51,588 nt of DNA from assembly GCA_016866775.1 (NCBI GenBank), contig VGLJ01000033.1, positions 1 to 51,588 of the forward strand. Direction: 5' to 3'. The position numbers and the translations under genes were made by a program. This document shows positions 13,083 through 37,821 of this stretch, piece after piece. Numbering within the stretch: the first letter of the stretch is position 1; each line of letters opens with the position of its first letter. Under the pieces are notes generated by a model. It was not told the DNA's origin. It saw nothing but the letters and a program-made list of their open reading frames with translations, and searched no databases. Source of the stretch: Candidatus Rokuibacteriota bacterium (GTDB lineage: Bacteria; Methylomirabilota; Methylomirabilia; Rokubacteriales; CSP1-6).

Positions 13083-13088
13083 ATTGTA
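13083..13088 (-). promoter_or_regulatory. Putative -10 element (TACAAT)
   Basis: TACAAT on the minus strand, 24 nt before GTG 13058, leaving room for a short leader with a GGATGAG ribosome binding site. No clear -35 box is seen. It would serve the zinc-ribbon and HPF-like pair. Confidence 0.35.
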
Positions 13089-13156
13089 CCGGGCGCGTCA
13101 TTTCTACATCGCGGCATCGCCCCTCCCGGGATCGAGAGGCTTCAAACGCGGTGCCG

Positions 13157-13900: not shown

Positions 13901-13907
13901 GGGTTGC

Positions 13908-15335
13908 TCAGGGGTCCGGAGGCACGCGCTGATGCCAGGCCGTGGCGTGTTCGTACGCCCACGCGGCGCGCAGGACCGTGGCGTCGTCGTAGCGCCGTCC
14001 CGCGATCTGCAAGCCGAGCGGAAGCCCCGTCGTCGTGAACCCGCACGGCACCGAGATCGCCGGCGTCGCCGAGAGATTGAACGGCGTCGTGTACGACCGG
14101 CGCTTGAAGAAGCGCGCCGCCGCGTCCGCCTTGCTCGTCACCGGCGCGTGCCCGCTGGCGATCTGCGGCGCGGGGCCGGGCTGCGTCGGGGCGAGCAGGA
14201 GATCGACGCGCTCGAGCGCGCCGAGGACCTCGCGGGTGATCAGCGCGCGGGCGCGCGCGGCCTGATGGTACGCGGCCGCCGGCAGCAGGCTCGCGGCGAG
14301 CAGCCGGCGGCGCGTGGCCACGTCGTACTCCGACGCCCGCTCGCGCAGCCACCGCTGATGCGCACCGGCCCCTTCCGAATCGGCGAGGGCCATGAACACG
14401 GCGCCGGCGAGCGGCACGAGCGGCAGCGACAGCTCCTCGACCTTCGCGCCCAGCTTCCGGAACTGCTCGATCGCGGCCAGCACCGCGCGCTGCCCTTCCG
14501 GATGCGTGTCGGCGCTCGTGGCCAGCTCGCGGACGATGCCGATGCGCACGCCGTCGACGCCCGCGTGCAACCGCGTGAGCACGTCGCCGGGCGCCTGCTG
14601 TCGCATCTGCGGGTCGCCAGGGTCCGGCCCGGCGATGACGGACAGGACCACCGCCGCGTCTTCCACCGTGCGCGTGATCGGACCGATCGCGTCCATCGAC
14701 CAGCAGAGCGGGATGCAGCCCGCGCGCGGCACCAGTCCCCAGGTCGGCCGCAAGCCGACCGCGCCGCAGTTCGACGCCGGGCTGCGGATCGAGCCGCCCG
14801 TGTCCTCGCCGAGCGTCACGGCCGCGAGCGCCGCCGCCGCCGCGATGCCGGAGCCCGAGGACGAGCCGCCGGGATCGTGCGCGACGTTCCACGGGTTCCG
14901 CGGCTGGCCGTACGGGAAGTCTTGCGTGCCTCCGAGCGCGAACTCCGTCAGGTTCAGCTTGCCCAGGAGGATCGCGCCGGCGCGGCGAAGGCGCGCGACC
15001 ACCGGCGCGTCGGCGGAGGCGACGTTGTCGGCGAGGAGCCGCGATCCCGCGGTCGTCCGGAGCCCGGTGGCGTCGAGCTGGTCCTTCACCGCGAACGGCA
15101 CGCCGTGCAGTGGCCCGAGACGCTCGCCGCGCGCCACCGCCTGCTCGGCGCGCTCGGCGTCGGCGAGCGCCTGGTCGCGACAGACCGTGATGTACGCGTG
15201 CAGCGTGCCGTCCAGGCGATCGATGCGATCGAGGAACGCGCGCACGAGCGCCACGGGTGAGAGCTGCCGCGCACGGATCCTCGCGGCCAGCTCCGTCGCG
15301 GGCGTGAAGGCGAGGTCGGACGCGGCGGCGCTCAT
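13908..15335 (-). CDS. Amidase signature enzyme (AtzE/GatA-like)
   Basis: 475 residues from ATG 15335. The amidase signature is complete: the catalytic Lys in PFAVKDQLDATG, the Gly/Ser-rich loop GGSSSGSG with the cis-Ser, and the nucleophile Ser in DTGGSIRSPA. It hydrolyses an amide, carboxybiuret-type or tRNA-linked substrate in the cytoplasm. The start overlaps the stop of a 57-residue GatC/AtzG-like gene (ATGA), a layout typical of AtzE-type amidases that need a small partner subunit rather than of free-standing amidases. A GatB gene is not present, which argues against the Glu-tRNA(Gln) amidotransferase. AtzE-like 1-carboxybiuret hydrolase is one option; substrate remains open. Confidence 0.88.
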   Translation of the reverse strand: MSAAASDLAFTPATELAARIRARQLSPVALVRAFLDRIDRLDGTLHAYITVCRDQALADAERAEQAVARGERLGPLHGVPFAVKDQLDATGLRTTAGSRLLADNVASADAPVVARLRRAGAILLGKLNLTEFALGGTQDFPYGQPRNPWNVAHDPGGSSSGSGIAAAAALAAVTLGEDTGGSIRSPASNCGAVGLRPTWGLVPRAGCIPLCWSMDAIGPITRTVEDAAVVLSVIAGPDPGDPQMRQQAPGDVLTRLHAGVDGVRIGIVRELATSADTHPEGQRAVLAAIEQFRKLGAKVEELSLPLVPLAGAVFMALADSEGAGAHQRWLRERASEYDVATRRRLLAASLLPAAAYHQAARARALITREVLGALERVDLLLAPTQPGPAPQIASGHAPVTSKADAAARFFKRRSYTTPFNLSATPAISVPCGFTTTGLPLGLQIAGRRYDDATVLRAAWAYEHATAWHQRVPPDP

Positions 15336-20024: not shown

Positions 20025-20030
20025 AGTCTA
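20025..20030 (-). promoter_or_regulatory. Putative -10 element (TAGACT) of a leaderless transcript
   Basis: TAGACT on the minus strand, 6 nt before ATG 20018, overlapping the TAG stop of the upstream ZnuB-like gene. Confidence 0.35.
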
Positions 20031-20837
20031 GCGGCGGAACGCCCAGAACGCGAGGAGCGTCGCGCCGAACATGCACACGACCGTCGCGCCCGTCGGCAGG
20101 TCGAGCGCCGCGGAGGCGACGACACCGAGCACGCTCACGAGTGTCCCGAACGCCCAGCCGATGAGGAGCTTCGCGCGCACGGTCCGGCCGAGCGCGACCC
20201 CGGCGAGCGCGGGGACGATGAGATACGAGAAGACGAGCAGCACGCCACCGATCCGCACCGAGCTGGTCACGACCACGCCGAACGACGCGTAGAACAGGAA
20301 GTCCCACCAGCGCACGCGCCAGCCCGCGGCGAACGCGGCATCGGGATCGGTGGAGATGAGGAAGAAGGGCCGGCGACACGCCCAGTGGAGCGCGCCCACC
20401 ACCGCGTAGAGCAGCGCGACCTTGACGACGTCCGAGGCTTGCACCGCGAGCAGGTTGCCGACGAGCATCGCGCGCACGTGCTCGACCCCGTGCGGCGCCC
20501 GGTCCGCGAGCAGGACGGCGCCCGCGGAGGACACCGCGTACACGACGCCGATGACCGCCTCCTGCGAGACGTGGCGCTCGCGCGTGCGCGTGACCGCGAG
20601 CACGAGCGCGCCCGCGACCGTGGCGCCGAGGCCGCAGGCGTACGACTGCCACGTGTCCAGGTCGAAGCCGACGAGGAACGCGGCGGTCGCGCCCAGCGCG
20701 GCGATCTGGGCGAGCGCGATGTCCACGAAGACGACCTCGCGCGCGAGCACGTGGACCCCGAGGTAGGCGTGGATCCCCGTGAGCACGAGACACATGAGGA
20801 ACGGCGCCCACAGCAGCGCGAGGAGGTCGAAGAACAC
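20028..20837 (-). CDS. Metal ABC transporter permease (ZnuB/MntB family)
   Basis: 269 residues from GTG 20837, with eight to nine hydrophobic helices and the family elements GIHAYLGVHVLAREVVFVDIALAQIAALG and SYLIVPALAG. It forms the inner-membrane channel of a zinc or manganese importer. It follows a ZnuA-like gene by 10 bp but has no ATPase gene of its own; the only ATPase of this family nearby is at 24775-25536, so the two permeases probably share it or an unlinked one. The sequence is diverged from the second permease in the cluster, so it is not a recent duplicate. Confidence 0.9.
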   Translation of the reverse strand: MFFDLLALLWAPFLMCLVLTGIHAYLGVHVLAREVVFVDIALAQIAALGATAAFLVGFDLDTWQSYACGLGATVAGALVLAVTRTRERHVSQEAVIGVVYAVSSAGAVLLADRAPHGVEHVRAMLVGNLLAVQASDVVKVALLYAVVGALHWACRRPFFLISTDPDAAFAAGWRVRWWDFLFYASFGVVVTSSVRIGGVLLVFSYLIVPALAGVALGRTVRAKLLIGWAFGTLVSVLGVVASAALDLPTGATVVCMFGATLLAFWAFRR

Positions 20838-20847
20838 GGCAGGATCG

Positions 20848-21771
20848 CTACCGGAGCGCCTCCGCGAGGGTCCGGACGTTGTGGTCGATCGCCGCGAGGT
20901 AGTTGTCGGCGCCCTTCACCGCGCCGACGGCGGAGGCCACCACGACCGCGCGGCCTCCGGCCTCTTCGGCCACGCGCGCCGCCAGCTTCTGGTCGTTCCA
21001 CGGCTCGACCAGCACGACCTTCACGCGCTCCTCCTTCATCTTCTTGATGAGCTGCGCGAGGTGGCCGGGCGAGGGCGGAATGCCGGGGCGATCCTCGATC
21101 GTGCCGATCTGGACGAGGCCGAAGCGCTTCAGGAAATACGCGAAGAGCGAGTGGTAGCCCACGACCTTGCCGCCTTTCAGGGGCTCCATCGTCTTCGTCC
21201 ACTTCGCCATCTCGGCCTCGACGCGCGCGAGGAAGGCCTGCCGGTTCTTCTCGAACGTCGCGCGGTGCGGCGGGGCGACGCGCGCGAGGCCCTCGAGGAT
21301 GTTCTGCGTGAGGACCGGCGCGAGGCCCGGATCGAGCGAGAAGTGCGGGTTGCCGAGCGGGTGGACGTCGCCCATCGAGCGATCGACGCGCCCGGTGGGC
21401 ACCTCGATGACCGGCACGTTGTGCGAGACGTCGACGCGGCCCGGCGCGCCGCGGATGATCTTCGGGTTGTTCGCGCCCTGCACGGCCACGTCGACCCAGC
21501 TGTCGAGGTCGAGGCCGTTCTGGACGAGGATGTCGGCCTTCCGGAGCTTCAGCATCATGCTCGGACGCACTTCCGCCTCGTGGAAGTTCTGCGTCCCGCG
21601 CGTGAGCGACTCGACGTCGACGAGCTCGCCCCCGACGGCCTCGGTCAGCGATTTCAGGTCGGGGATGGTGGTGACCACCCGGACTTTTTCCGCGGCGTGC
21701 GCGGAGCACACCAGCGCGGCGAGCGCGAGCGCGATCGCGGCGAGCACGCGCGTGAGCCTCGAGACCTTCAT
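20848..21771 (-). CDS. Metal ABC transporter substrate-binding protein (ZnuA-like, second copy)
   Basis: 307 residues from ATG 21771. A Sec signal peptide ends at SAHAAEKV. Cluster A-I features: VVTTIPDLKSLTEAVGG, candidate ligand His in NFHEAEVRPS, His in GNPHFSLDP, His in GYHSLFAYF, and an acidic residue in VEPWNDQ. There is no His-rich loop, unlike the copy at 25527, so it may prefer manganese or bind zinc with different affinity. A perfect AGGAGG lies inside the 3' end of the Fur-family gene and the ATG overlaps that gene's stop (ATGA), so regulator and binding protein are tightly coupled. Confidence 0.9.
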   Translation of the reverse strand: MKVSRLTRVLAAIALALAALVCSAHAAEKVRVVTTIPDLKSLTEAVGGELVDVESLTRGTQNFHEAEVRPSMMLKLRKADILVQNGLDLDSWVDVAVQGANNPKIIRGAPGRVDVSHNVPVIEVPTGRVDRSMGDVHPLGNPHFSLDPGLAPVLTQNILEGLARVAPPHRATFEKNRQAFLARVEAEMAKWTKTMEPLKGGKVVGYHSLFAYFLKRFGLVQIGTIEDRPGIPPSPGHLAQLIKKMKEERVKVVLVEPWNDQKLAARVAEEAGGRAVVVASAVGAVKGADNYLAAIDHNVRTLAEALR

Positions 21772-22241
21772 CGTGAAACCTCCTGCGAGCGGAGCGGACC
21801 GCACGGTCCGCAGACTCCGTAGAGCCGGATGTCGTGCCCCGTCACCTCGAAGCGCGTGGCGCGCCGGACCCGCCGTTCGAGCCGCGCGAGCACGGGCTTT
21901 CTGAGTACGCAGCCGTCGAAGTCCTGCACCGCGCCGCAGCGTTGGCAGACGAGGTGATGGTGGTGTCCGGTGAAGCGCTCGCTCAGCTCGAACCGCTGCG
22001 TGCCGCGTGAGGTGTCCGCAACCTTCATGATGTCCTGACGGCAGAGGAGCGCGACCGTGCGATAGACCGACGCGAGATTCACCCGCCGTCCACGGAGCCG
22101 TCCGTACAGCTCCGCGACCGACAGCGGGTGCCGGACGTCCGCGAGCACCTCGAGCACCGCGCGGCGCGGGCGCGTGAGCCGCACACCACGCGCGGCGAGC
22201 ATCGACGAGAGGGTGGGAGACGCGGTCGTGGCGCCGGTCAC
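21768..22241 (-). CDS. Fur-family metalloregulator (Zur-like)
   Basis: 157 residues from GTG 22241, which overlaps the previous stop (GTGA). The N-terminal winged helix (RLTRPRRAVLEVLAD, NLASVYRTVALL) is followed by the dimerisation domain with H93-96 and two zinc knuckles, C99-x-x-C102 and C144-x-x-C147. It should act as a cytoplasmic repressor of metal uptake genes. Its place among ZnuABC genes makes zinc (Zur) or manganese sensing more likely than iron. The longer frame to 22337 lies in the preceding gene. I did not find a convincing 7-1-7 operator upstream of the cluster. Confidence 0.9.
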   Translation of the reverse strand: MTGATTASPTLSSMLAARGVRLTRPRRAVLEVLADVRHPLSVAELYGRLRGRRVNLASVYRTVALLCRQDIMKVADTSRGTQRFELSERFTGHHHHLVCQRCGAVQDFDGCVLRKPVLARLERRVRRATRFEVTGHDIRLYGVCGPCGPLRSQEVSR

Positions 22242-22516
22242 GGGACGTCCGTGAGGGCGCCGACGCAGTGGACGTGATTGCCGTGGAGGAGACACACCTC
22301 GCCGCGCGGGCCGTGGATCGCACGCTCGTCCTTCCACCAGCCGTCACCGCCGCCCCGGAGAGAGCCGTGATCGCCGATCCCCGCGCCGACTCGTATCCGA
22401 CCACTGCGCCACGGGTCGTCGTAGATCGCGACGGTCGTCCCGTCGGCGCACGAGAAGGCCATGTCGAGCCGCACGCAGGCGACGAAGAGCAGCGCGAGCC
22501 CCGCGAGCCGTGTCAT
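22238..22516 (-). CDS. Small exported protein of unknown function
   Basis: 92 residues from ATG 22516, overlapping the NicO-family stop (ATGA). A hydrophobic N-terminus (LAGLALLFVACV) is a signal peptide or anchor; the Cys could be a lipobox, but Phe at -3 is atypical. The mature part has WWKDERAIHGPRGEVCLLHGNHVHC, with two Cys and three His that could bind metal. The 4-bp overlaps at both ends show it is an authentic member of the metal operon. Family not recognised. Confidence 0.65.
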   Translation of the reverse strand: MTRLAGLALLFVACVRLDMAFSCADGTTVAIYDDPWRSGRIRVGAGIGDHGSLRGGGDGWWKDERAIHGPRGEVCLLHGNHVHCVGALTDVP

Positions 22517-23433
22517 CCCAGCCGTGCCCACGCGCCCGCGAGCAGGAGGCTCCCGATGGCCGCGATGATCACGCCGCCCGCGACGCTCAAGCCTTTGGCC
22601 ACCCAGCCGCTCACGCGCGACTCGGCCGGGAACGCCACCATGATGGTGCGCCGGCCTAGGATCGCCAGGACGCCCACTAGCGAGGTCGTGATGCTCATGC
22701 CGATGGCCATCACGAGCGTCAGGCCCACCCCGATGAGCAGCACACCGTTCGTGAGCGCGAACAGCATGATGATCAGCGCGCTCGCGCACGGCGTGACGCC
22801 GGCCGCGATGACCATGCCGATGCCGACGCGCTCGCGCGCGTCGTGGTCGTAATGGTGCGTGCCGCGCGCGGCGGAGATCGCGATGACGAGACCGATCGCG
22901 ATGATCAGCACGTAGCTCACGGCTTCGAGCCAGACCGAGCGTCCGAGTACGTCGAAGCCGTGCTGGCCGAGGATCACACCGAGACCCCACACGAGGACGA
23001 TCGAGGTGATCGCCTGGAGGAACGAGATCGCGCTCCCGGCAACGATGCCGGCGCCGATGCGCGCCTTCCTGGCGAGAAAGAACGACGACACGACGAGCTT
23101 GCCGTGGCCCGGGCCCGCGGCGTGGAGGACGCCGTACACGAACGCCACGCCGGTCACGACGAGGAGGGCGCGCAGGGAGCCCGTCTCGCGAATCGCTTTG
23201 AGCTCGCGGGAGATCGTCCGGTTGAGGTCGCGCTGCGCGGAGGCGATCGGCGCGACGATCGGCCGCAGGAACCCGGGCACCGCGCCGCCTTCAGCGCCGC
23301 CGGGCACCGGCGTGGGCGCGGCGGGGCGCGACGGGGCCACGCCCCACGGGTTCTGCTGTGCGGTCGCCGGCGCGGCGACGAGACACAAGGCCGCGAGCAC
23401 GAGCGCGCGGATCAACGTCGGCGGTAGCTGCAT
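22513..23433 (-). CDS. NicO/RcnA-family nickel/cobalt transporter
   Basis: 306 residues from ATG 23433, preceded by GGAGA inside the end of the upstream frame. A signal-like N-terminus and a periplasmic Pro/Gly-rich stretch precede a six-to-seven helix membrane domain with the family motif VLHAAGPGHGK, a His/Asp-rich loop (GTHHYDHDARER) and the VTPCASALIIML helix. NicO proteins of this group export nickel or cobalt (RcnA) or take up nickel. Standing next to a DUF1007 domain is a known pairing for this family. Export of excess metal beside uptake genes would give two-way homeostasis. Confidence 0.85.
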   Translation of the reverse strand: MQLPPTLIRALVLAALCLVAAPATAQQNPWGVAPSRPAAPTPVPGGAEGGAVPGFLRPIVAPIASAQRDLNRTISRELKAIRETGSLRALLVVTGVAFVYGVLHAAGPGHGKLVVSSFFLARKARIGAGIVAGSAISFLQAITSIVLVWGLGVILGQHGFDVLGRSVWLEAVSYVLIIAIGLVIAISAARGTHHYDHDARERVGIGMVIAAGVTPCASALIIMLFALTNGVLLIGVGLTLVMAIGMSITTSLVGVLAILGRRTIMVAFPAESRVSGWVAKGLSVAGGVIIAAIGSLLLAGAWARLG

Positions 23434-24782
23434 CGCAAGGTCTCCACCAGTTTTGTCTTCGCCTCGCGCACCGGGGCGCATTCGATGCGATAGCTCGGCG
23501 GGCCTTCGGCCGTGATCATGGGACCGATCGCCGTGAACGCGGTGTAGAACGTCGCGTCGACCACGTTGACCTCCACCGTGCCTTCCCTTCGCGTCGCGCG
23601 CGGGATCGGCACGATGAAGAGATAGTGAAGCTGGCCCTTGACGTTCTGGGCCTCGAAGTCCTTCGGGTCCTTCACCGGGATCGCGGTCCCGTCGACCTTG
23701 ACCTCGACGAACCAGTTGAAGTCCTTCAGCCGTGAGAAGTGGTCCTGCTCGAGCGCGCGCGTCTCCCGCGCCGAGAACTTGCCGTCGCGGTCGCTGTCGT
23801 ACTTCTGGATGATCAGCTCGCTCAGCATCTCGTCGAACGCCCAGTCGACCCTCACACCTTCCGGGCCGTCGGCGCCGAAGCGCACGGTCACCGTGTAATC
23901 GATCCAGGCGTGCGGGTGCGCGCCGGCGCGCGTCGCGCCGAGCGCGAGCACGACGAGCGCGGTGGCCGCGGCGACGCGGGCGACGCGGAAGCGGCGCACG
24001 GGGCCTGTGAGGGCGAAGAGCACCAGCGCCGTGAGCACCACGGAAGCCCCGGCGGCCAGCCGCAGGTAATACGCGAGGACGAGCCCCGTCACCATCGAGA
24101 CGACGGCCAGCCCCATCGCGGTGAACAACGCGCCGCGGAAGCTCCTCGCGAGCGCGAAGCCGGCGAGCGTCGGGATGACGATCATCGCGCTGACGAGGAG
24201 CACGCCGACCATGCGCATTGCGATCACCGTCGTCAGCGCCGTGAGGACCGTGATCACGAGGTTCAGCGCCGCCACCGGCACACCGCTCGTCCGCGCGAGA
24301 TCTTCGTTGAGCGTGATCGCGAGCAAGCGCGGGTAGAGGAGGCCGATCGCGACGCCGACCACGACACCCAGCCCGCCGATCATCCAGAGGTCGGTCACGG
24401 TCACCGTCAGGATGCTGCCGAACAGCACGGCGAAGAGGTCGACGTTGAAGCCGCGGCCGAGGCCGATCAGCACGACGGCGAAGGCCAGGCCCCCCGAGAG
24501 GAAGATCGCCAGCGACGCATCGCCGGTGAGGGCGCCGCGCGTCCGCAGCCGCTCGATGCCGACGGCGCCCGCCGCGGTCACGACGAGCGCGCCGACGACC
24601 GGCGAGACGCCGGCCACGAGCCCGAGCGCCACGCCCGCGAGCGCGACGTGCGCGAGCGTGTCCGCGATCAGCGAGAGCCGGCGCGGCACGAGGAAGATGC
24701 CGATCGCGGGACAGATCAGCGCGGTGATCACGCCGGCGATCAACGCGCGCTGCATGAAGCCGTACGAGAGGAGCTCAGGCAT
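23412..24782 (-). CDS. ZnuB-type ABC permease fused in frame to periplasmic DUF1007 domain
   Basis: 456 codons with no stop. Residues 1-260 are a ZnuB/MntB permease (PAIGIFLVPRRLSLIADTLAHVALAG; AMIVIPTLAG). Residues 262-288 look exactly like a Sec signal peptide (RRFRVAR, hydrophobic core, AGA), followed by the DUF1007 domain starting at H289-P-H291. A complete EF-hand-like loop runs D329 to E340 (DSDRDGKFSARE). A GTG at 23999 is placed to start DUF1007 separately (195 residues, a normal length), so either a true fusion tethers DUF1007 to the channel or a lost permease stop is bypassed by internal initiation. The start overlaps the ZnuC stop. Confidence 0.88.
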   Translation of the reverse strand: MPELLSYGFMQRALIAGVITALICPAIGIFLVPRRLSLIADTLAHVALAGVALGLVAGVSPVVGALVVTAAGAVGIERLRTRGALTGDASLAIFLSGGLAFAVVLIGLGRGFNVDLFAVLFGSILTVTVTDLWMIGGLGVVVGVAIGLLYPRLLAITLNEDLARTSGVPVAALNLVITVLTALTTVIAMRMVGVLLVSAMIVIPTLAGFALARSFRGALFTAMGLAVVSMVTGLVLAYYLRLAAGASVVLTALVLFALTGPVRRFRVARVAAATALVVLALGATRAGAHPHAWIDYTVTVRFGADGPEGVRVDWAFDEMLSELIIQKYDSDRDGKFSARETRALEQDHFSRLKDFNWFVEVKVDGTAIPVKDPKDFEAQNVKGQLHYLFIVPIPRATRREGTVEVNVVDATFYTAFTAIGPMITAEGPPSYRIECAPVREAKTKLVETLRCSYRRR

Positions 24783-25536
24783 GGGCGCAGGGCGGCTCGT
24801 GGCCCACGACGCGCACGGTGGTGCCGTAGAGCGCGGTGAGGGGGTCGTTCGTGAAGTAGTCCTGGGGGCGACCGCAGAAGATCACTCGGCGGTTCAGACA
24901 CGCGAGCTTCGTGACCTCGCGCGCGACGACGCCGATGTCGTGGCTCACGAGGACGAGCGTCACGCCGCGCTCGCGGTTCAAGTGGTGGAGTAACGCGTAG
25001 AAGCTGCTCTGCGTTTCCGGATCGATGCCCCCCGTCGGCTCGTCGAGGATCAGGAGCTCCGGATTGGACACCAGCGCCCTCGCGATCAGCACGCGCTGTT
25101 GCTGGCCCGCGGACAGTGCACCGACGCGATCGCCCGCACGTTCCGTCATTCCCACGAGGCCGAGCGCGTCCGACACGACGTCACGCCCGCTCGAGCCGCT
25201 GCCGAACCATCGCCGCGACGCCACGAGTCCCGTCGTCACGACCTCGTCAACGCGCACCGGCAGCGCGGCGTCGAAGCTCGTGCGCTGAGGAACGTAGCCG
25301 ATCCGGCGCCAGTCACGGAACGCGGTGGGGGCGACGCCGAAGACTCGGATGCTGCCTGCCGACGGCGCCAGCAGACCGAGGATGAGACGGAGCAGCGTCG
25401 TCTTGCCGGACCCGTTCGGCCCGATGATGCCGACGAAATCGCCGGGCTCGATGGTGAACGTGACGTCCTCGAGCACACGAGCGCCCCCGAACTCCATGCT
25501 CGCGTGATCGAGGACGACGACGTCGCTCACGTGCAC
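24775..25536 (-). CDS. Metal ABC transporter ATP-binding protein (ZnuC-like)
   Basis: 253 residues. Walker A G39-PNGSGKT, Q-loop Gln in YVPQR, signature LSAGQQQR (141-148), Walker B LLILDEPTGG (D165, E166), D-loop, and switch His in LVSHD are all intact. The protein powers zinc or manganese import from the cytoplasmic face. The 5' end overlaps the ZnuA-like gene at 25527 and the 3' end overlaps the permease fusion. It is the only ATPase for two binding proteins and two permeases. The C-terminus is short and His-containing (GHEPPCAHA). Confidence 0.94.
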   Translation of the reverse strand: MHVSDVVVLDHASMEFGGARVLEDVTFTIEPGDFVGIIGPNGSGKTTLLRLILGLLAPSAGSIRVFGVAPTAFRDWRRIGYVPQRTSFDAALPVRVDEVVTTGLVASRRWFGSGSSGRDVVSDALGLVGMTERAGDRVGALSAGQQQRVLIARALVSNPELLILDEPTGGIDPETQSSFYALLHHLNRERGVTLVLVSHDIGVVAREVTKLACLNRRVIFCGRPQDYFTNDPLTALYGTTVRVVGHEPPCAHA

Positions 25537-26453
25537 TCCAGCGCGATGCGGAGATTCTTCAGGTTGTCCTCCATCACGGCGACATAGTCCTTGCCCGCCT
25601 TCGCCTCGTCGGCGGTGAGGCCTTCCAGCGGGTTCAGCACGAGCGTCTTCGCGCCGACTTCGGCCGCCAGCGTTTCGGCGAGCTTCGGGCTTACGAGCGT
25701 CTCGAAGAAGATGACCTTCGCTTTCAGCTTGCGCACCAGCCGCACCACGCGCGCGAGCTCGGCCGGACTCGGCTCCGCCTCGGGCGAGATGCCCATGACG
25801 GGCACCTGAAGCAGGCCGTATCGCTTCGCGAGATACGCGAACGCGGCATGCGACACCACGATCTCGCGGCGCGCACAGTCGGCCAGGCCCGTGCCGAGCG
25901 TCTCATGCAGCGCGTTCAGACGAGCCGTGTAATTCACCGCGCGTGTCGCATAGTGTGCGGCGTTCGCCGGATCCGCCTTGGCGAGCCCTGCGCGAATGGC
26001 TTCGACCTGACCGCGGGCGAGCAGCGGATCGAGCCACACATGCGGATCGGGCTCCGCCTTGGCCTTCGCGTGGGTGTGCGTGTCGTGACCCGGCAGGTCC
26101 GCCGTGAGCAACGACAAGCCGGCCGTCGCCTCGACGACGATGGCCTTGCCCGCGGCGGTCCTGGCGAGCCGTGCGGCGCCGGCATCGAAGCCGGCGCCGT
26201 TGTAGACGAACACCGCCGCCTTCTCGACCCGCGCGACGTCGGCTGGCGACGGCTCCCAGTCGTGCGGCTCGACGCCCGTCGGGACCAGCGACACGACCTC
26301 CGCGCGATCGCCCGCGACCTGCCGAGTGAAGTCGGCGAGCGTGGAGAAGCTGGCCACGACGAGCGTGCGTGGCGGCTCGACCTTGGGCTTCTCCTGGCAG
26401 GCGGCGAGTGCCAGGACGACGACGCCGAGCAGGGCCGCCGTTGACGTCTTCAT
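25527..26453 (-). CDS. Metal ABC transporter substrate-binding lipoprotein (ZnuA-like)
   Basis: 308 residues from ATG 26453. A lipobox (VVLALAAC) makes it a lipoprotein. Candidate ligands are His in GVEPHDWEPS, His in DPHVWLDP, His in VSHAAFAYL and the Glu in FFETLVSP. A His-rich loop (GHDTHTHAKAKAEPDPH) precedes the second ligand; such loops are typical of zinc-specific ZnuA and gather or sense zinc. It delivers metal to the permease. Its end overlaps the ATPase gene by 10 bp, and the porin gene lies 7 bp upstream. Confidence 0.93.
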   Translation of the reverse strand: MKTSTAALLGVVVLALAACQEKPKVEPPRTLVVASFSTLADFTRQVAGDRAEVVSLVPTGVEPHDWEPSPADVARVEKAAVFVYNGAGFDAGAARLARTAAGKAIVVEATAGLSLLTADLPGHDTHTHAKAKAEPDPHVWLDPLLARGQVEAIRAGLAKADPANAAHYATRAVNYTARLNALHETLGTGLADCARREIVVSHAAFAYLAKRYGLLQVPVMGISPEAEPSPAELARVVRLVRKLKAKVIFFETLVSPKLAETLAAEVGAKTLVLNPLEGLTADEAKAGKDYVAVMEDNLKNLRIALECT

Positions 26454-28203: not shown

Positions 28204-28581
28204 CTACGGCCGGGGCCGGACGTCGAACGGGAACGTGCCTTCGACCAGGTGGCCGTCCACGGAGAGCACGCGGTACTTCACCGAATACCCGCCCTTCTTC
28301 AGCGGCGGCACGCCCACCGAGAGCTTGCGCGGGTCCTCGGGGCCGACGACGATCTTGCCGTCGTCGACGCGGACCTGGTCCGCCCATACCGAGAGCGTCG
28401 AGTACGCCGGCTCCAGGCGCTCGTTGAACGTCAGCTCGACCCGTGACGGTGAGATGGCGAGCGTCGCGCGGCGAGCCGGCGACGACTTCACCAGCACCGC
28501 GTGCGCCTCTGCGACGGACACGCGCGCCGAGAGAAGCATCAGCACGGCCGCGAGCGCCACGCGGACGAGGCGCGCCGTCAT
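28204..28581 (-). CDS. copC: CopC-like periplasmic copper-binding protein
   Basis: 125 residues from ATG 28581. Signal peptide cleaves before H27 (EAHAVLVKSSP), leaving an N-terminal His, and D109-G-H111 (SVDGHLVEG) supplies the partners of the Cu(II) site, so the type I His-brace-like centre of CopC looks complete. The size matches stand-alone CopC domains. It carries Cu(II) in the periplasm, usually to CopD, and a CopD-domain protein is encoded at the head of the same run. The start overlaps the previous stop (ATGA). No Met-rich Cu(I) site is evident. Confidence 0.92.
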   Translation of the reverse strand: MTARLVRVALAAVLMLLSARVSVAEAHAVLVKSSPARRATLAISPSRVELTFNERLEPAYSTLSVWADQVRVDDGKIVVGPEDPRKLSVGVPPLKKGGYSVKYRVLSVDGHLVEGTFPFDVRPRP

Positions 28582-28823
28582 CGCGTATCCGGCTCCGACC
28601 GCTTGGCGCTCGTCTCCCCGGAGGCGCCCTGGTCCGGGTTCGGGCGGGTGAGCACCATGATGAGCACGACCACGATCAGCGCGACGAGGAGCGCGAGGCC
28701 GCCGGTGATCAGCGCGGTTGCGAGCGGGCCCATGCCCTCGACGCGGAAGGCGCCGGGATGGTCCGCGAACGCCGGCGTCGCGGCGAAGACGGCCGCGAGG
28801 GTGACGCCGAGACTTCGCGTCAC
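28578..28823 (-). CDS. Small membrane protein of the copper-type cluster
   Basis: 81 residues from GTG 28823, coupled at both ends (GTGA with the cytochrome gene, ATGA with copC). A signal peptide (LGVTLAAVFAATPAFA) leads to a short periplasmic piece DHPGAFRVEGMG, then one strong transmembrane helix and a charged cytoplasmic tail (RPNPDQGASGETSAKRSEPD). No family recognised. Bracketing by CopC and a cytochrome c suggests a membrane anchor or adaptor for them. Confidence 0.7.
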   Translation of the reverse strand: MTRSLGVTLAAVFAATPAFADHPGAFRVEGMGPLATALITGGLALLVALIVVVLIMVLTRPNPDQGASGETSAKRSEPDTR

Positions 28824-29755
28824 TTCGCGGGCGCGCTCCAGTCGAAGGCTACGGTCTGCGGACGCGCATAGCGCGTGCGATCGGGGCCCACGACCGGGAC
28901 CGTCGTCGCGCCGATCGTGAGCACGATGCGCTGCGTGCCCTGCGGGAGCGTTGCGTCCGCACCGTAGTGGAATCCGCTCGGACCGACCATCGGCGCGAGC
29001 TTCACCACGCGCGTCGGCGCGCCCTGGATCTGCACGCCGGCGGACACCGGGAGATACGGCACCGGCTCGCCGGTCTCCGCGTCGCTGACGAACGCCATCA
29101 GGTGTCCCGCCGCGCCGCCCGGCTTCGCCGCGTGGTGCCCGCCGTGTGCGCCGTGACCGGCATGCCCGCCGTGACCCTGAGCGTGGTCTTGCCCGCTCGC
29201 GGCGTGGAACGCGAGACGGACGCGATACGGCCCGATCGTGCGCTCCATCGCCGCGCCGTGATGCCCGTGATGGTGCCCCTGACCACCGCCGTCCTGACTC
29301 TTGATGAACGCGACCAGGTCGACGAGCTGCGCGACGCTGAGCGAATCCGCGTAGCTCGGCATGATCGACGTGCCGTCCGGCCCGATCCATCCCGGCCCCT
29401 CGAGGAGCACCGCGTTCGGCGCGAGGATCGACTCCGCGAAGTACTCCGCAGGATGATGCGCGCCCATCCCGGTGAGCTCGGGGCCGGTCTTGCCATCGCC
29501 ACCCGTGGGCGGGAAGTTGCCGCCCTTGATCAGGTGGCACTTGTAGCACTCGAGGTCGGCGAAGAGCTGGCGGCCCTTCGCGGGATCGCCAGCGCCGGGA
29601 AGCGTGAACTTCCATCCGCGCGGCACGCCGCCGCCGCGGTGCAGCTCGTCCATCGTCACGCGGCGCTGCGCGGCCGCGCCTGTCGCGAGCGTCGCCACGA
29701 GCGCGGTGAGCGCGAGCACGCCCAGCGCCGCGCCGATGACCGTCCGGTGCCTCAT
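28820..29755 (-). CDS. Cytochrome c fused to a Tp34/P19-like metal-binding domain with His-rich inserts
   Basis: 311 residues from ATG 29755. Signal peptide, then a class I cytochrome c domain with C70-YK-C73-H74 and an axial Met candidate in GTSIMPSYAD. After it comes HHHGHH (about 158-164), then a beta domain like Tp34/P19 periplasmic iron-transport proteins (GPYRVRLAFHAAS ... MAFVSDAETGEPVPYLPV ... GFHYGADATLP ... TVAFDWS). A second Gly/His-rich insert (HGGHAGHGAHGGHH) lies at about 188-209 within the first strands. P19 binds Cu and Fe or Mn. Joining it to a haem suggests redox change of bound metal, which is inference. Overlaps with neighbours are 4 bp each side. Confidence 0.85.
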   Translation of the reverse strand: MRHRTVIGAALGVLALTALVATLATGAAAQRRVTMDELHRGGGVPRGWKFTLPGAGDPAKGRQLFADLECYKCHLIKGGNFPPTGGDGKTGPELTGMGAHHPAEYFAESILAPNAVLLEGPGWIGPDGTSIMPSYADSLSVAQLVDLVAFIKSQDGGGQGHHHGHHGAAMERTIGPYRVRLAFHAASGQDHAQGHGGHAGHGAHGGHHAAKPGGAAGHLMAFVSDAETGEPVPYLPVSAGVQIQGAPTRVVKLAPMVGPSGFHYGADATLPQGTQRIVLTIGATTVPVVGPDRTRYARPQTVAFDWSAPAK

Positions 29756-30951
29756 CGCGTCGTCCTCCCCGAGCCTGCGCCGAGGCGCAGGATGATCGTT
29801 TTCGCCCGCGGGAACTGCTCCTCGTGCCACGTCACGACCGCCCGACCGTCAGGGGCCATCGTCACATCTGGAGCATATGCCTTGACCGCCTGGGACAGCG
29901 CCTGAATTGGGCCGAGACGGTCCGTCGTCACCTCGCGCAGGAGCACGCGACGGCGCACCGCCGTGGAATCTTCCCAGACGATCGCGGCGTGGCCCCGATC
30001 GTTCACGGCCAGCCGCGCGTGATCCGGGATCGACGACGTCGAGACGTGGACCCGGCGCGGCGCCGTGAATCGCCGGCCGTCCGTGGACGTCGCGTACAGC
30101 ACGGCCGGCTCGTTGCGCGCGCCTTCCGTGTACCAGACCGCGTGGACGCGGCCCTGACCGTCGATGGCGGCGGTGCCGCCGCGGTGCGGACACGCGGTGA
30201 TCCGCCAGCCGTCGGCGTGCACGCGCGCGGGCGCGCCGAACGTCCGCCCGCCGTCGCGCGAGGCCGCGAGCACCATGTCGCGAATGTCGCCGGGGAAGAC
30301 CTTGCGCCACAGCACCGTCACGATGTCCGGCGCGGCGGCCGCGAGCGACACGCGGCAGCACACGCAGGTCTCGTCGTCGTCCAGCGCGCGCGTGCTCTCC
30401 ACGCGCGTGCCGCGCTCGAGGATGCGCGTGAGATACGTGCGCGGCCGCTCACCGGCGCGCGTCTCGATCCACGCGACCAGCACGGTGCCGTCGGGCGCGA
30501 CGGCGAGCCCCTCGAACGAGTGCGAGGTCGGCGTGTCGTCGGTCACGCGGAGCGGCGGCTCGAACGTCTTGCCACCGTCGAGCGATCGCGACAGCTGCAA
30601 GTCGGACGCGAAGAGGCCGCCCTCCGGCTTCGCGCGGCGCGAGGCCCAGCTCACGTAGATCTCGCCGCGCGACCCGACCGCGAGGCCCGGGCCCTGGTGG
30701 AGCGAATCCGCGCTGAGGCCTTTCGGCGAGACGCGAACGCGCTCGCCCTCGGCCCGCGCCGCGTAGACCACGTTGTCGTGGCCTTCCTGAGCCACCCACG
30801 TGACGAGCGGGCCCTCGCGATCGACCACCAGCGCCGGCGCCGAGAGGCGGACGTCGTGGCCGGCCGCCGGATGGACGATCTCGTGACGCTGGGCCTGGGC
30901 GCCGGCGGGCAGCGCGACGAGCGCCGCGACGAGAACGAGCCGGCGGATCAC
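29752..30951 (-). CDS. Exported BNR/sialidase-like beta-propeller with CVCC motif
   Basis: 399 residues from GTG 30951, overlapping the TonB-receptor stop (GTGA); GTG 30963 gives four more residues. Signal peptide ends at AQAQRH. Asp-box repeats SRSLDGGKTF and SRDGGRTF and evenly spaced propeller strands mark a BNR/sialidase fold. Sialidase active-site Arg triads are not evident, so enzymatic sialidase activity is unlikely. A CVCC motif (DDDETCVCCRVSL) and ACPHRGG add Cys residues that could hold metal. It is embedded among copper and receptor genes and is probably a periplasmic or surface binding protein. Confidence 0.8.
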   Translation of the reverse strand: MIRRLVLVAALVALPAGAQAQRHEIVHPAAGHDVRLSAPALVVDREGPLVTWVAQEGHDNVVYAARAEGERVRVSPKGLSADSLHQGPGLAVGSRGEIYVSWASRRAKPEGGLFASDLQLSRSLDGGKTFEPPLRVTDDTPTSHSFEGLAVAPDGTVLVAWIETRAGERPRTYLTRILERGTRVESTRALDDDETCVCCRVSLAAAAPDIVTVLWRKVFPGDIRDMVLAASRDGGRTFGAPARVHADGWRITACPHRGGTAAIDGQGRVHAVWYTEGARNEPAVLYATSTDGRRFTAPRRVHVSTSSIPDHARLAVNDRGHAAIVWEDSTAVRRRVLLREVTTDRLGPIQALSQAVKAYAPDVTMAPDGRAVVTWHEEQFPRAKTIILRLGAGSGRTTR

Positions 30952-33023
30952 TTCCACCGCCACGCGACGCCGCCGTAGAACGCGCGGCCATCACCCGGCT
31001 CGTAGAAGCGCCCGACGGCGCTGTCGACGACCACCGACGAGGCGTAGGTCACGTCCGCGAGGTTCCGGCCCTCGAAGAACACGCTGAGGTTCCAGCGCTT
31101 CACGTCGTACCCCATGCGCACGCTCACGAGCTCATAGGGCGACGTGCGGTTGCGGTTCTCGCTGTTGACGACATAACCCTGGGGCACGAATTCCACGTTC
31201 GGTGCGACCCAGAAGCCCGAGGCGTGGTCGTAGCGCAGCTCGCCGCGCAGGAAGTGGCGTGGCGCGCCGGGCACGTCGTTGTCGCCGAAGTTCCGATCGT
31301 CGACGAACACGAATCGTGACCACGTGTACGCGGTGCGCGCGGTCAGCGAATCGCCGCCGATCAGATCACGCGCGATCACCACGTCGAAACCGGCCTCCAG
31401 GCCCATGTGCCGCGAGCGGTCGATGTTGCGGAAGCGGGGGACCGTGAACGGCGCGCCCGGAAACGGCTGGACGTTGACGTTCTGGATCTCGTCCCACAGC
31501 TCGATGTCGTAGACCGCCACGTCCCATGTCACGCGACCGAGCGCGCGCCCACGCATCCCCACCTCGAACTGCCACGCCTTCTGCGCGTCGAGCAGGCTCA
31601 GGTTCCGCGTGTTGAGCTGGCCCGGCGCGGTGAGCTCGAGGAGCAGCGGCGGCTCGTACGCATGGCTCGCGTTGCCGTAGACCTGGACCTCCTTGCTGAC
31701 GCGCCCGATCGTCCCGAACCGCGGAACGAGCGCGACGTATTCGACGTCGCCCGACTGGTTGCCGTTGGAGAGGAAGCGATCGCGCACGGCGCGATAGGCG
31801 TACTGGCCGCGCACGCCGGCAACGAGCGTGAGCGCGGACGTGACGTCGAGCTGCGCTTCCGCGTAGAGCCCGACGTTCGTCGCCTGGTTGAGCTGGTTCT
31901 TGATCTTCGCGCCGCGCCGGCCGGCGAGGTTGGCGAGCTGGGCGTCGATCTGGCTGGTGGAGAGGTACTGCAGGCCCGCGGTGAAGCGGCTCGCGAGGCC
32001 GAACAGTGGCGCCGTCTGGATGTACCGGAGCTCCGCGCCCCAGTTGTAGGTGGTCTGGTCGATGATCGCGAAGCTCAGCGGATGATCGAGGTCCTGGTAG
32101 TCGGTCTGCAGCCGCCCCTCGATCGCGCCGCTCTCGCCGAGCGGCGTCCGCACGGTGAGCGCGCCGCGCACGTAGTCGTAGCGGCGCGCGGCCCGGGTGG
32201 CGACGCTGGTCGGATCGGCGCGCCGCGGATCGCGCTCGAGCTCGTCGCGCGTGAGCGCGCCGGGCAGGTTCTCGTCGTTGCGGACATAGCCGAGGTCGAG
32301 CCGCACGCTCGTCCCGCCGCCGAGCTCGTAGCCGAACGACGTGTAGAACCGGTGCCGGATCTGGTCGCTGTAGTCGCGATACCCGTTCAGCTCGACGTCG
32401 GTGAAGCTGCCGTACAGGTCGAACGGGCCGTAGACCTGTCCGGTCGCGAGGTGGTTCTTCCAGAAGCCGAACGAGCCGGCTTCGCTGCGGAGCGCGAGCA
32501 GCCCCTCGTCGTGGCCCGTCTTGGTGACGAGGTTGACGGCGCCACCGAGGGTGAAGCCGCCGAACCTGAGCGCGTTGGCGCCCTTGTAGACCTCGATGCG
32601 CTTGGTGGCGAGCAGCTCGAGCGACTCGAAGTCGCTGAAGCCGTCGGCCTGGCCGTAGACGAAGCCGTCGAGCAGGACGTTGACCCCGCGCAGGTGGAAG
32701 TTGTTCCGGAGGCCCGAGCCGCGGATCGAGAGCTGGCTCTCGTCGGCGGCGCCCGCGCGGGGCCGGATCAGCACGCCCGGCGTGTAGTCGAGCGCGTCTT
32801 TCAGGTTCGCCGACCTCGCGCTCTCGATCTCGTGCTGCGGGATGACGTTCACGCTGCCCGGCACGCGCTCCAGCTCCTCGCGCGTCTGCTCGTCCGTCTG
32901 CCGGCGCTCGGGTACGAGCCGCGGGCTTTCCACGACGACGGGCGGAAGGGTCGGTGGGGGCTGTGCCCCGGCCGTGGCGGCGGTCATCGCCACGATGAAA
33001 GACATCAACAATATCGGTCTCAT
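30948..33023 (-). CDS. TonB-dependent outer-membrane receptor
   Basis: 691 residues from ATG 33023. Signal peptide, candidate TonB box around PPVVVESPR, plug domain (VPGSVNVIPQHEIESARSANLKDALDYTPGVLI ... IRGSGLRNNFHLRGVNVLLDG ... VEVYKGANALRFGG), and a 22-strand barrel rich in aromatic-alternating strands. The plug resembles the FecA/siderophore type. The barrel ends in WRWK rather than an aromatic terminal residue. The ligand is unknown; genes around it for CopC, CopD, cytochromes and P19 suggest copper or iron chelates. The tonB gene lies 8 bp upstream, so the energy transducer is co-expressed. Confidence 0.93.
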   Translation of the reverse strand: MRPILLMSFIVAMTAATAGAQPPPTLPPVVVESPRLVPERRQTDEQTREELERVPGSVNVIPQHEIESARSANLKDALDYTPGVLIRPRAGAADESQLSIRGSGLRNNFHLRGVNVLLDGFVYGQADGFSDFESLELLATKRIEVYKGANALRFGGFTLGGAVNLVTKTGHDEGLLALRSEAGSFGFWKNHLATGQVYGPFDLYGSFTDVELNGYRDYSDQIRHRFYTSFGYELGGGTSVRLDLGYVRNDENLPGALTRDELERDPRRADPTSVATRAARRYDYVRGALTVRTPLGESGAIEGRLQTDYQDLDHPLSFAIIDQTTYNWGAELRYIQTAPLFGLASRFTAGLQYLSTSQIDAQLANLAGRRGAKIKNQLNQATNVGLYAEAQLDVTSALTLVAGVRGQYAYRAVRDRFLSNGNQSGDVEYVALVPRFGTIGRVSKEVQVYGNASHAYEPPLLLELTAPGQLNTRNLSLLDAQKAWQFEVGMRGRALGRVTWDVAVYDIELWDEIQNVNVQPFPGAPFTVPRFRNIDRSRHMGLEAGFDVVIARDLIGGDSLTARTAYTWSRFVFVDDRNFGDNDVPGAPRHFLRGELRYDHASGFWVAPNVEFVPQGYVVNSENRNRTSPYELVSVRMGYDVKRWNLSVFFEGRNLADVTYASSVVVDSAVGRFYEPGDGRAFYGGVAWRWK

Positions 33024-34481: not shown

Positions 34482-35468
34482 CTAGCGGCCGGCCCGGCGC
34501 GTTTCCTCGGGACGCAGCGCCATGCCGTGCGGCGCCTTGCCGACCTGGATCCGGCGCACTTCCTTGTGCGTGGCGACGTCGATGACCGAGACCGCGCCGG
34601 CGTAGCGGTTGGTGACGAGCGCGTAGCGTCCGTTCGGCTCCATCGTCACCAGGTCGGGATACCCGCGGGAGTCGACGACCTTGACGATCTTGTCGTCGGC
34701 GGTGCTGACGACCACCACCTTGTTGGCCTTGCGCAGCGTCACGTAGAGGAACTTGCCGTCGAGCGTCAGCGTGGTCTCGTGCACCACGCCCGGCATCGCG
34801 ATGCTCGCGACCTGCTTGTTGGTGACGGTGTCGATCTTCAGCACGGCCTTGTTCTCGCCCGCGCCCGCGTAGAGCACCTTGCCGTCCGGGCTGAGCGCCA
34901 GCCCCATCGCGTCGCCGCCGCCGTGGATGATGCGCGCGACCGCGGTGCGCGTCTGCGTGTCGATCACGGTCACGTCACCCGCCGTCTCGCCCGAGACGTA
35001 GAACAGCCGCGCGTCACGCGAGAACACGCTGTGCGCCGGCCACGTCGAGACCTCGAGGCGCCACTCGATCTTCTCGGCCTTCAGGTCCCAGACGATGATC
35101 TCGTCGTTGCTGGCGTCGCTCGACCAGTCGAGCACGTAGAGATAGCGGCCGTCCGGGCTGAAGCTCAGGTTGTACGGGTTGCCGCCGATCTTCACGCGCT
35201 TCACCAGCTTGCGCGCCTGCGCGTCGACGACGCCGAGATCGCGGCTCTTGTCGTAGACGACCCACGCCTGCTTGCCGTCCGGGTGGAACACGATGCGATT
35301 CGGCTTGCCCTGGCCGAGCGGGATCGTGCCCGTCACCTCGAAGGTGTTGGTGTCGATGATCGAGATCGAGTTCGACTTCGTGTTCGTGACGTAGAGGCTC
35401 GCCGCGCCGGCCGGTGCCGCGAGGGCGAGCGTGACGAGGAGCGCGAGGGCGCGGGCGGCGGACGTCAC
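34482..35468 (-). CDS. Exported YVTN-type beta-propeller protein
   Basis: 328 residues from GTG 35468, preceded by AGGAGG at 9 nt. A signal peptide (ALALLVTLALAAPAGAA) is followed by SLYVTNTKSNSISIIDTNT and about seven repeats of the YVTN/YncE kind (each with a D-x-D-G or SPDGR turn). Such propellers are periplasmic scaffolds; some work with TonB receptors or haem and copper enzymes (nitrous-oxide reductase, cytochrome-like). No catalytic residues are obvious. It lies between the CusF-like gene and the receptor group. Confidence 0.88.
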   Translation of the reverse strand: MTSAARALALLVTLALAAPAGAASLYVTNTKSNSISIIDTNTFEVTGTIPLGQGKPNRIVFHPDGKQAWVVYDKSRDLGVVDAQARKLVKRVKIGGNPYNLSFSPDGRYLYVLDWSSDASNDEIIVWDLKAEKIEWRLEVSTWPAHSVFSRDARLFYVSGETAGDVTVIDTQTRTAVARIIHGGGDAMGLALSPDGKVLYAGAGENKAVLKIDTVTNKQVASIAMPGVVHETTLTLDGKFLYVTLRKANKVVVVSTADDKIVKVVDSRGYPDLVTMEPNGRYALVTNRYAGAVSVIDVATHKEVRRIQVGKAPHGMALRPEETRRAGR

Positions 35469-35482: not shown

Positions 35483-35839
35483 TCAGGGTTTTTCGATCGC
35501 GGTCACGACCACGAGCGGTGGCGATCCACGCACCGTAAATCGTACCGCGTCGCCCACGGAAAGCGACGGGGGAATCTTCGCTCCGGCCAGGCGGAAGCCC
35601 ATGGTCATGCCCGGCATGTAGCCCGGGATGTCCGCGTGCGTGAGCACGACGATGCCGAGCTCGGGCACGATCGCGCGGACCACGCCCTCGACGTCACGCC
35701 ACTCGCGCTCGGGGCCGCCCCAGGTGATCGTCCGGGCATCCGCCTGGGCGGCGGTGCGGCGCCACAGGTGCCAGCCACCGGCGGCTCCGACGACGACCAG
35801 GAAAAGATTGACCAGCAGGGCGGCCGTGAGCGCCCTCAA
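35483..35839 (-). CDS. CusF-like copper-binding protein with N-terminal anchor
   Basis: 118 residues from TTG 35839, which overlaps the stop of the CopD fusion (TTGA). Residues 5-24 form a membrane anchor or uncleaved signal. The domain has the CusF/Cu-binding signature: H68 (VLTHADIPGYM), then M75, M78 and M80 in GYMPGMTMGF. CusF-type proteins bind Cu(I) and Ag(I) in the periplasm and hand it to pumps or to cytochrome oxidase assembly factors. It is directly downstream of the CopD fusion, so the two should be made together. Confidence 0.85.
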   Translation of the reverse strand: MRALTAALLVNLFLVVVGAAGGWHLWRRTAAQADARTITWGGPEREWRDVEGVVRAIVPELGIVVLTHADIPGYMPGMTMGFRLAGAKIPPSLSVGDAVRFTVRGSPPLVVVTAIEKP

Positions 35840-37821
35840 TGCACGTGCTCGTCGGCCGGCGGGGCGTCGGCCTTCTCCTGGTTCAGCTCCTGGATCTCCG
35901 CGAGCAGGCGATTCATGTCGCGCGCGGTCTCGGTGCGGCTCGACCAGCGTGCGCGGAGGTAGCCGCGGCGGTCGATCAGGAACTCGGCGTGCGGCGCCGT
36001 GTCGAACCGCCGGTAGACGGAGAGGATGTCGAGGCCGCCATCGGTGACGACCGGGAAGAGCACGCGCGGGGTGTCGCCGAGCTTCTTGATCGCGTCGGGG
36101 GACGCGTCGGTCGGCACCGCGATGATCTCGACCCCCAAGGTGGTGAGCATCTGATACGCGTCGGCGAGCTGGGCGAGACGCTCGCGCGAGCGCGGCAGCG
36201 TGTAGAGGACCAGGAGGACGTGACGGCCGCCGCGATAGTCGCGCAGCGACCGTGGGGGCGCCGGGGCGACGGTGTATGAGAAATCCGGCGCCACCAGCCA
36301 TGCGCGGCCCGGATCGACGGTCGGGCCCATCCAGCGCGCGGTCTCGAGCACGCCGAGCAGGCGCACGTAGTTGATCACGTCCCAGCGCTGCTCCTCGCTG
36401 AGCGTCGCGGCGAACCCGGGCATCGCGGCGCGCGCGATCCCGTGGCTCACCCACCAGAAGAGGTCGCCGGCGGTGTGATCGCCGGTGTGTGGCGCGCGAA
36501 GATCCGCGGGCGGCCGCGGCAGGCGCGGCGCCGCGGGGCCGTCGCCGCCGCCCGAGCGTCCGTGGCAGACCGCGCAATGCTCGTCGTAGACGGCCATCCC
36601 GCTCACGATCGACGTCGCCGTGTAGGGGACGGTCGGGCGGTGATAGGTCGTGGGATAGGCGTCGACCGCGAGGGGAATCAGCGCGAGCGCGCCACCCATC
36701 GTCACGAGCACGAGCGCGCCGGCGAGCAAGGGCAGCCGCAGGCGCTGGCGCCGCAGCATCGCCACGCAGAGGAGCCCGACGAGGCCGATGACGGCCACCT
36801 GGCTCCCGACGAGGACTTGCCACCGCGCCTCGGTGCTGCGCTCCAGCGCCGCCGTCGCGAGCCGGAACGCGAACGGCCACGCGGCTTGCTCGTGACGCGC
36901 CGGTGGCGTCACGCCGAGCGCCGCGACGACGGCGAGCACCGCGGCGATCAACACCGCCTCGGTCGTCACCGACGCGGCCAGACGCCGCATCGCGGGGCGG
37001 CCGATCGTCTCGGCGTCGCCGCTCAACGCCGGCAGGAGACGCCGGCGATGACGCGCGGCCACGATCAGCGCGAGCGCGAACGCGACGAGCTTCACCAGAA
37101 GCAGGCGGCCGTACGTCGTGCCGATGAGCCCGGCGACGTCCGCGATGTGCGTCGTCGCGTTCACGACGCCCGAGAGGCCGAGCGCGATGACCGTGACCAG
37201 CGCCCACCGCGAGAATCGACGTCCGGCCACGACCGCGTACGGCCGCGCGTCCGCGCCGCTCTCCCGCGAGGCCGCGCGCAGGAGCAGCGCGAGGGCAGGG
37301 AGCGCGCCGGCCCAGACGCCCGTGGCGGCGAGATGGATGAAGTCGACAGCGATCGCACGGATCGCACCGGGCTCGACGGCCGCTGCGTGCCCCGCGGCGC
37401 TGGCGAGCGCCAGTGCGAGGGCCGCGAGCGCCGCGGTCTCGCCGTGCAGCGCGACCCAGTCGACGCGCGCGACGACGCGCAGGCCGCCGCTGACGAAGAA
37501 GCCGGCGAGCGCGAGGAGCGCCAGGCGGCTCAGCCACACGAGACCGCCCTGCGTCTCGGTGGCGACGCGCAACAGCGCGCGTGGCTCGAACGCGGCGCCG
37601 GCGCGGCCTTCGAGGAGCGCGGTCTGATGCGCGAGGACGCCGACGCCCGCGACGACGGCGACGAGCAGCAGCCAGCGCGCCGCGCGCGCGACGCGCCGCT
37701 GCCACGCGAGCGCGGTGGGCCGGTCGGACGCGCCGGCGACGAGCAGCATCACCGCGCCGCCGACGAGCGCGACGGACGCGACGAGGTGGATCCAGCGGAG
37801 GGCGAGCGCGAGCGTGCTCAC
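35836..37821 (-). CDS. Three-part fusion: CopD-like membrane domain, cytochrome c, Cys-less redoxin domain
   Basis: 661 residues from GTG 37821. Residues 1-310 form a CopD-like polytopic domain (FSRWALVTVIALGLSGVVNA; GRLLLVKLVAFALALIVAARHRRR). Two further helices follow (about 330-385). A cytochrome c domain carries C416-AV-C419-H420 and an axial Met in ARAAMPGFAATL. The last part (about 500-645) is a thioredoxin-like/peroxiredoxin-like domain (HVLLVLYTLPRSRERLAQLADAY ... VEIIAVPTDASPDAIKKLG ... AEFLIDRRGYLRARW) in which the usual active-site Cys is absent. It would sit in the inner membrane with haem and redoxin parts in the periplasm, joining copper transport to electron transfer. Confidence 0.88.
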   Translation of the reverse strand: MSTLALALRWIHLVASVALVGGAVMLLVAGASDRPTALAWQRRVARAARWLLLVAVVAGVGVLAHQTALLEGRAGAAFEPRALLRVATETQGGLVWLSRLALLALAGFFVSGGLRVVARVDWVALHGETAALAALALALASAAGHAAAVEPGAIRAIAVDFIHLAATGVWAGALPALALLLRAASRESGADARPYAVVAGRRFSRWALVTVIALGLSGVVNATTHIADVAGLIGTTYGRLLLVKLVAFALALIVAARHRRRLLPALSGDAETIGRPAMRRLAASVTTEAVLIAAVLAVVAALGVTPPARHEQAAWPFAFRLATAALERSTEARWQVLVGSQVAVIGLVGLLCVAMLRRQRLRLPLLAGALVLVTMGGALALIPLAVDAYPTTYHRPTVPYTATSIVSGMAVYDEHCAVCHGRSGGGDGPAAPRLPRPPADLRAPHTGDHTAGDLFWWVSHGIARAAMPGFAATLSEEQRWDVINYVRLLGVLETARWMGPTVDPGRAWLVAPDFSYTVAPAPPRSLRDYRGGRHVLLVLYTLPRSRERLAQLADAYQMLTTLGVEIIAVPTDASPDAIKKLGDTPRVLFPVVTDGGLDILSVYRRFDTAPHAEFLIDRRGYLRARWSSRTETARDMNRLLAEIQELNQEKADAPPADEHVH

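Follow-up and report, generated by a model that had tools for sequence, protein, structure and literature searches.

P19 is a homodimer that binds Cu and Fe/Mn. It works alongside the permease FTR1, with a redox partner in the periplasm (PMC10783030, PMC6083913, PMC8238504); P19 gene clusters encode this partner separately, and it may be a thioredoxin, a cytochrome or an FMN-binding protein (PMC6083913, PMC8238504). The FtrA protein of Rubrivivax is cited in PMC11966278 as able to oxidise Fe(II) in its Cu-loaded form. The other closely related setting is copper import by CopC and CopD, exemplified by B. subtilis YcnJ (CopC-CopD-YtkA), where CopC/CopD import is linked to the respiratory oxidases and supports them (PMC13344008).

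Here, we analysed a DNA stretch of 51,588 nucleotides (the window) from a soil Rokubacteria bacterium, in which a single secreted protein joins an electron-carrying cytochrome to a P19-related metal-binding domain. Our literature searches for a combination of cytochrome c and a P19 domain gave no report. The gene and the parts of its product are the following:

28820..29755, minus strand: cytochrome c/P19-fold fusion gene (ORF, ATG at 29755; 311 aa; probable signal peptide)
29294..29581, minus strand: class I cytochrome c domain, residues 59-154 (PF00034, 41.7 bits; CYKCH at 70-74; axial Met132 likely)
29258..29275, minus strand: HHHGHH linker (residues 161-166), corresponding to the His tail at the end of unfused cytochromes
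28823..29257, minus strand: P19/Tp34-fold domain, residues 167-311 (profile and model), with the putative metal residues His218, Met220, Met256 and His263
29108..29203, minus strand: Gly/His-rich loop at residues about 185-216, where it separates the first strands of the P19-fold domain; variable, often absent

The first-pass annotation had read from this ORF a CYKCH haem domain, then HHHGHH and a P19-like beta domain split by a Gly/His-rich insert, and the ORF itself, PF00034 and PF10634 confirm that order, which is preceded, by our own reading of the sequence, by a signal-like N-terminus at about residues 1-30. The protein contains 20 His, the last of which is His263. In the full-length AlphaFold model (pLDDT 69, pTM 0.51) the placing of the domains relative to each other is not confidently predicted.

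With regard to the P19 assignment, the score of PF10634 (Fe2+ transport protein, P19) was 21.5 bits at residues 227-283 of the full protein against a cut-off of 21, and since a single marginal Pfam score is too little on its own, the call was checked in five ways. The score rose to 23.2 for the C-terminal domain alone, and 21 of the 24 fusion members that we collected matched PF10634 at E<=1 (best E 3e-8). When all PDB sequences were searched with a profile built from the C-terminal domain, 15 matched, every one in the P19 family (Tp34, HftA, FetP, P19, FtrA; best E 2e-6), including 4nwn, a designed cage with a P19-like sequence, and hhalign against true P19 proteins of the same phylum plus one other returned a probability of 96.9%. 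The AlphaFold model of the C-terminal domain alone had a mean pLDDT of 86, with a core of about 95, and all 38 Foldseek matches at E<=1e-3 were P19, Tp34, FtrA, FetP or HftA structures or a designed cage on that fold. VIA-align gave Z scores of 13.1-14.3 against P19-family chains over about 119 residues; beyond the family, CrdA reached 12.4, a DUF4426 protein 10.7 and the rest at most 9.1. The Tp34/P19 identity claimed in the first-pass annotation, which depended on profile support, was thus borne out, and we regard the P19/Tp34 fold of the C-terminal domain as robust. H. pylori CrdA, a copper resistance determinant, has a similar beta-sandwich (2.1 A over 99 residues); it gave no sequence match to the C-terminal domain in the PDB profile search, has no haem, and its proposed site is Met-rich and lacks His (PMC9182242). 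A YtkA domain, as in YcnJ, was considered and rejected, there being no Pfam match to it in the fusion protein.

The residues of the putative metal site lie in three motifs of the C-terminal domain, GHLM (217-220), LAPM (253-256) and FHYG (262-265). In the numbering of C. jejuni P19 (PDB chain 3lzl), His42, Glu44, Met88, Asp92 and His95 correspond to His218, Met220, Met256, Ser260 and His263 of the fusion, and His132 has no counterpart, no His being found past residue 263. The fusion therefore aligns three of the four residues His42, Met88, His95 and His132, which we take to be the copper ligands of P19. The two acidic positions are not kept: Glu44 is replaced by Met, and Asp92 by Ser260 here and by Gln, Ser, Arg or other residues in relatives. 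The loss of the acidic residues together with the gain of a second Met would indicate a copper-type site, and we infer from the alignment that His218, Met220, Met256 and His263 may together bind copper, in a site that would suit both Cu(I) and Cu(II). As compared to the P19, Tp34, FetP, FtrA and HftA proteins, the domain shares the fold, the equivalents of His42, Met88 and His95, the periplasmic location and the expectation of a redox partner, whereas it differs in the substituted and missing positions just described, in a shorter hairpin after the first His, in its fusion to a cytochrome c, and in its occurrence in a copper operon and in a genome without FTR1.

The combination His/Met/Met/His is present at all four positions in 18/24 members, across divergent genera, and one member has Gln at 220. 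Site residues are partially lost in L014 and L018 (also in L013), and all four are lost together in the clade L023/L025/L027. The cytochrome is intact in these four lineages with partial or total loss, and L014, L018 and L023/L025/L027 remain in the copper operon in spite of it. The fact that lineages can lose site residues and yet retain the cytochrome and, mostly, the operon argues that the metal site is dispensable.

The N-terminal domain has the CxxCH motif, the axial Met and the PF00034 match of a class I cytochrome c. Met132 lies within IMPSY, and in the alignment the haem C, C, H and Met are invariant in 24/24 fusion members. CxxCH and the Met ligand are shared with SoxX-like and class I cytochromes c, with a weak NCBIfam match to SoxX (24 bits, cut-off 61) and a structural match to SoxAX (1h31_B); the domain differs from SoxX-like proteins in belonging to its own sequence family with a His tail and in being fused here to a putative metal-binding domain. 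Unfused cytochrome relatives of the same class mostly stop 9-18 residues past the last helix, and this short tail contains at least one His (for example, ...SLTEGGHKH and ...SLTPKGGHSHTGH), so that the HHHGHH linker is most simply explained as the old cytochrome tail, which would have been retained on addition of the P19-fold domain. The loop insert, mostly modelled without regular structure, is 2 to 32 residues long across the 24 members and is without His, and essentially absent, in eight of them; both linker and loop differ between relatives in length and His count. The two His-rich inserts highlighted in the first-pass annotation are therefore present in the window, but they are not conserved parts of a carrier. 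We rejected them as the defining feature of the protein, the linker being an inherited tail and the loop missing in 8/24 members, and they are likely to be accessory.

The same cytochrome family was seen in other contexts. A relative in Myxococcota (L046:5842-6759) carries a different C-terminal extension of about 130 aa, and two CopD-type proteins (L056, minus-strand frame 12602-14113, and L059:5757-7262) end in the same His-tailed cytochrome c family (ETQGGVHRHRP); the genomes of L056 and L059 also contain the P19 fusion.

A search for the same domain order in other genomes, as proposed at the outset, recovered it in 23 genomes besides the window's own, i.e. in 24 non-redundant genomes, all of one GTDB family (Rokubacteria, Methylomirabilota), with an additional fragment at a contig edge in G041. 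The genome-wide scan used short exact peptide patterns, which distant fusions could escape. The fusion was found in none of 297 sampled genomes of Myxococcota, the phylum of L046, three of which had stand-alone matches; the plasmid search gave one match, to the cytochrome only and not to a fusion, and the search around L045, covering one genome, gave no fusion. In these sequence searches, the cytochrome/P19 pairing was found only in the Rokubacteria group. The tree of the cytochrome domain was weakly resolved as to one or several fusion events.

The surroundings of the gene in the window are as follows:

28204..28581, minus strand: CopC (PF04234), in which a DGH motif and a His that directly follows the signal peptide are read as a putative Cu(II) site
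28578..28823, minus strand: small one-helix membrane protein, 81 aa, its start overlapping the fusion gene's stop; a similar small gene lies beside the operon in L056 and L064
29752..30963, minus strand: BNR-repeat-like protein containing CVCC, its gene overlapping the fusion gene at the latter's start
30948..33005, minus strand: TonB-dependent receptor
34482..35468, minus strand: YNCE-like beta-propeller, part of the conserved operon
35483..35839, minus strand: CusF-like Cu(I)-binding protein (PF11604, 52 bits)
35836..37821, minus strand: CopD-cytochrome c-AhpC/TSA-fold triple fusion (CAVCH haem motif; thioredoxin-like part without CXXC)

The CopC and CopD-fusion neighbours noticed at first pass are thus in place. 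The fusion gene shares four bases with each of its neighbours (29752-29755 and 28820-28823), which puts it in a tight operon with the BNR-like protein, the small membrane protein and CopC. The BNR-like gene was not seen adjoining the fusion in the other genomes; in the window, this gene, the TonB-dependent receptor and a TonB protein intervene within the cluster. The P19 fusion and the CopD fusion share one cluster in 15 genomes, a count that covers the window and the G041 fragment, and these clusters mostly also hold the CusF-like protein, the YNCE-like propeller or CopC; CopC and CopD lie in a conserved cluster with the fusion in many, not all, fused genomes. Within the 24-member set, G046 alone lacks a close homologue of the CopD fusion. 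In genus g7, the P19 fusion is located elsewhere than the CopD gene, the CopD fusion still being in the genome, and in three further genomes the P19 fusion does not adjoin the CopD gene. In L082 and L083 a cytochrome without P19 domain occupies the same operon slot, which makes the cytochrome the conserved element and the P19-fold domain an addition. The locus shares with YcnJ the set of CopC, CopD and an extra beta-domain; as opposed to YcnJ, CopD here bears a cytochrome c together with a thioredoxin-fold domain that lacks CXXC, and the place of the extra beta domain is taken by a P19-like domain carried on a second cytochrome.

The CopD triple fusion, which is the second fusion of a copper protein with a cytochrome in the cluster, was matched at E<=1e-60 in 53/95 genomes of the phylum. 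Elsewhere in the window, two tandem ZnuA/ABC-3 metal uptake sets (20028-26453, minus strand) have a Fur-like regulator between them (21768-22202, our own reading of the sequence), and an ABC-3 metal permease fused to DUF1007 (23412-24782, minus strand) adjoins ZnuA and a NicO-type nickel transporter.

As for the partners encoded elsewhere in the genome, FTR1 (PF03239) is absent from the window's genome, which is 97.5% complete. Many fused genomes contain FTR1, never on the contig of the fusion, whereas the true P19 genes of the phylum are on the same contig as FTR1 in six genomes. The window's genome (G000) has four COX2 matches and, at the same completeness, no match to SCO1 or to PCuAC (PF04314), the latter also giving no match in the fusion protein; CuA assembly would then depend on other chaperones, or the genes lie in a gap of the genome. 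The fusion as a general replacement of PCuAC was rejected, since most fused genomes encode PCuAC elsewhere.

Taken together, the copper-gene neighbours and the altered binding residues suggest copper rather than iron, and copper handling is the better fit. We see an even chance that the fusion is a soluble periplasmic copper-handling protein of the CopC/CopD operon, whose own haem exchanges electrons with its copper. The two His and two Met of the P19-fold domain would bind copper in both the Cu(I) and the Cu(II) state; the haem would take an electron from, or give one to, the copper in the same chain; copper would be passed between the Cu(II)-type CopC, the Cu(I)-type CusF-like protein and the CopD-cytochrome fusion, and would thereby have the oxidation state that its import, or the loading of respiratory oxidases, requires, with the His-rich linker and loop possibly serving as auxiliary weak copper sites. 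That copper is the metal, that the haem exchanges electrons with it, in either direction, and that the role is in import or oxidase loading, we infer from the P19 fold, the fold match to CrdA, the four residues retained in 18/24 members and lost together in L023/L025/L027, the copper cluster and the absence of FTR1; the oxidase-loading side is supported by the CopC/CopD link of B. subtilis (PMC13344008) and by the four COX2 without SCO1 or PCuAC. The cytochrome in the slot of L082 and L083 and the genomes of g7 and three others lacking adjacency to CopD weaken the copper-site explanation, and a strict coupling of haem and metal is disfavoured by the several lineages that lose the metal residues and keep the haem. 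That a single-chain, cytochrome-coupled copper oxidoreductase was made from the P19 fold, with the haem directly setting the oxidation state of copper in CopC/CopD import, is a tentative and rather doubtful proposal.

The lineages with degraded metal sites would be explained if the protein were a plain electron carrier, its cytochrome being a partner of the CopD-cytochrome fusion or of an oxidase and its P19-fold domain a docking or anchoring module with a dispensable metal site, as the haem ligands kept in 24/24 members and the unfused cytochromes of L082 and L083 would also allow; we hold this to be unlikely, considering the four metal-type residues kept across divergent genera and their joint loss in one clade. 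An iron carrier or ferroxidase, in which the P19-fold domain oxidises Fe(II) like Cu-loaded FtrA, the cytochrome removes the electron and the iron feeds a permease, draws on the fold, on the Rubrivivax finding as cited in PMC11966278, on the separate redox partners of P19 clusters (PMC6083913, PMC8238504) and on the FTR1 genes of many fused genomes. The Met at the Glu44 position, the variable Asp92 position, the missing His132 equivalent, the copper genes alongside and the lack of FTR1, which elsewhere lies on another contig, make iron an improbable answer, and the Fe/Mn carrier of P19 type seen at first pass is not upheld by the same residues and genome. Least probable of all, in our view very much so, is a zinc or broad metal buffer that would work through its His-rich parts and serve the ZnuABC-like transporters encoded next to it: the protein is rich in His, and metal ABC transporter genes (PF01297/PF00950) adjoin the fusion in the window and are near it in a few relatives, but the loop is so often missing and the linker so variable, linkage to ZnuA is seen in few genomes and copper linkage in many, and the haem would have no obvious role beside redox-inert zinc.

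The finding bears on the change in oxidation state that metals undergo in P19-type carriers and in CopC/CopD systems. With a P19-fold metal site and a haem in one natural protein of a CopC/CopD operon, the electron partner becomes explicit and open to test with a single purified protein; the fusion further suggests that copper, in addition to iron, may be served by this fold.
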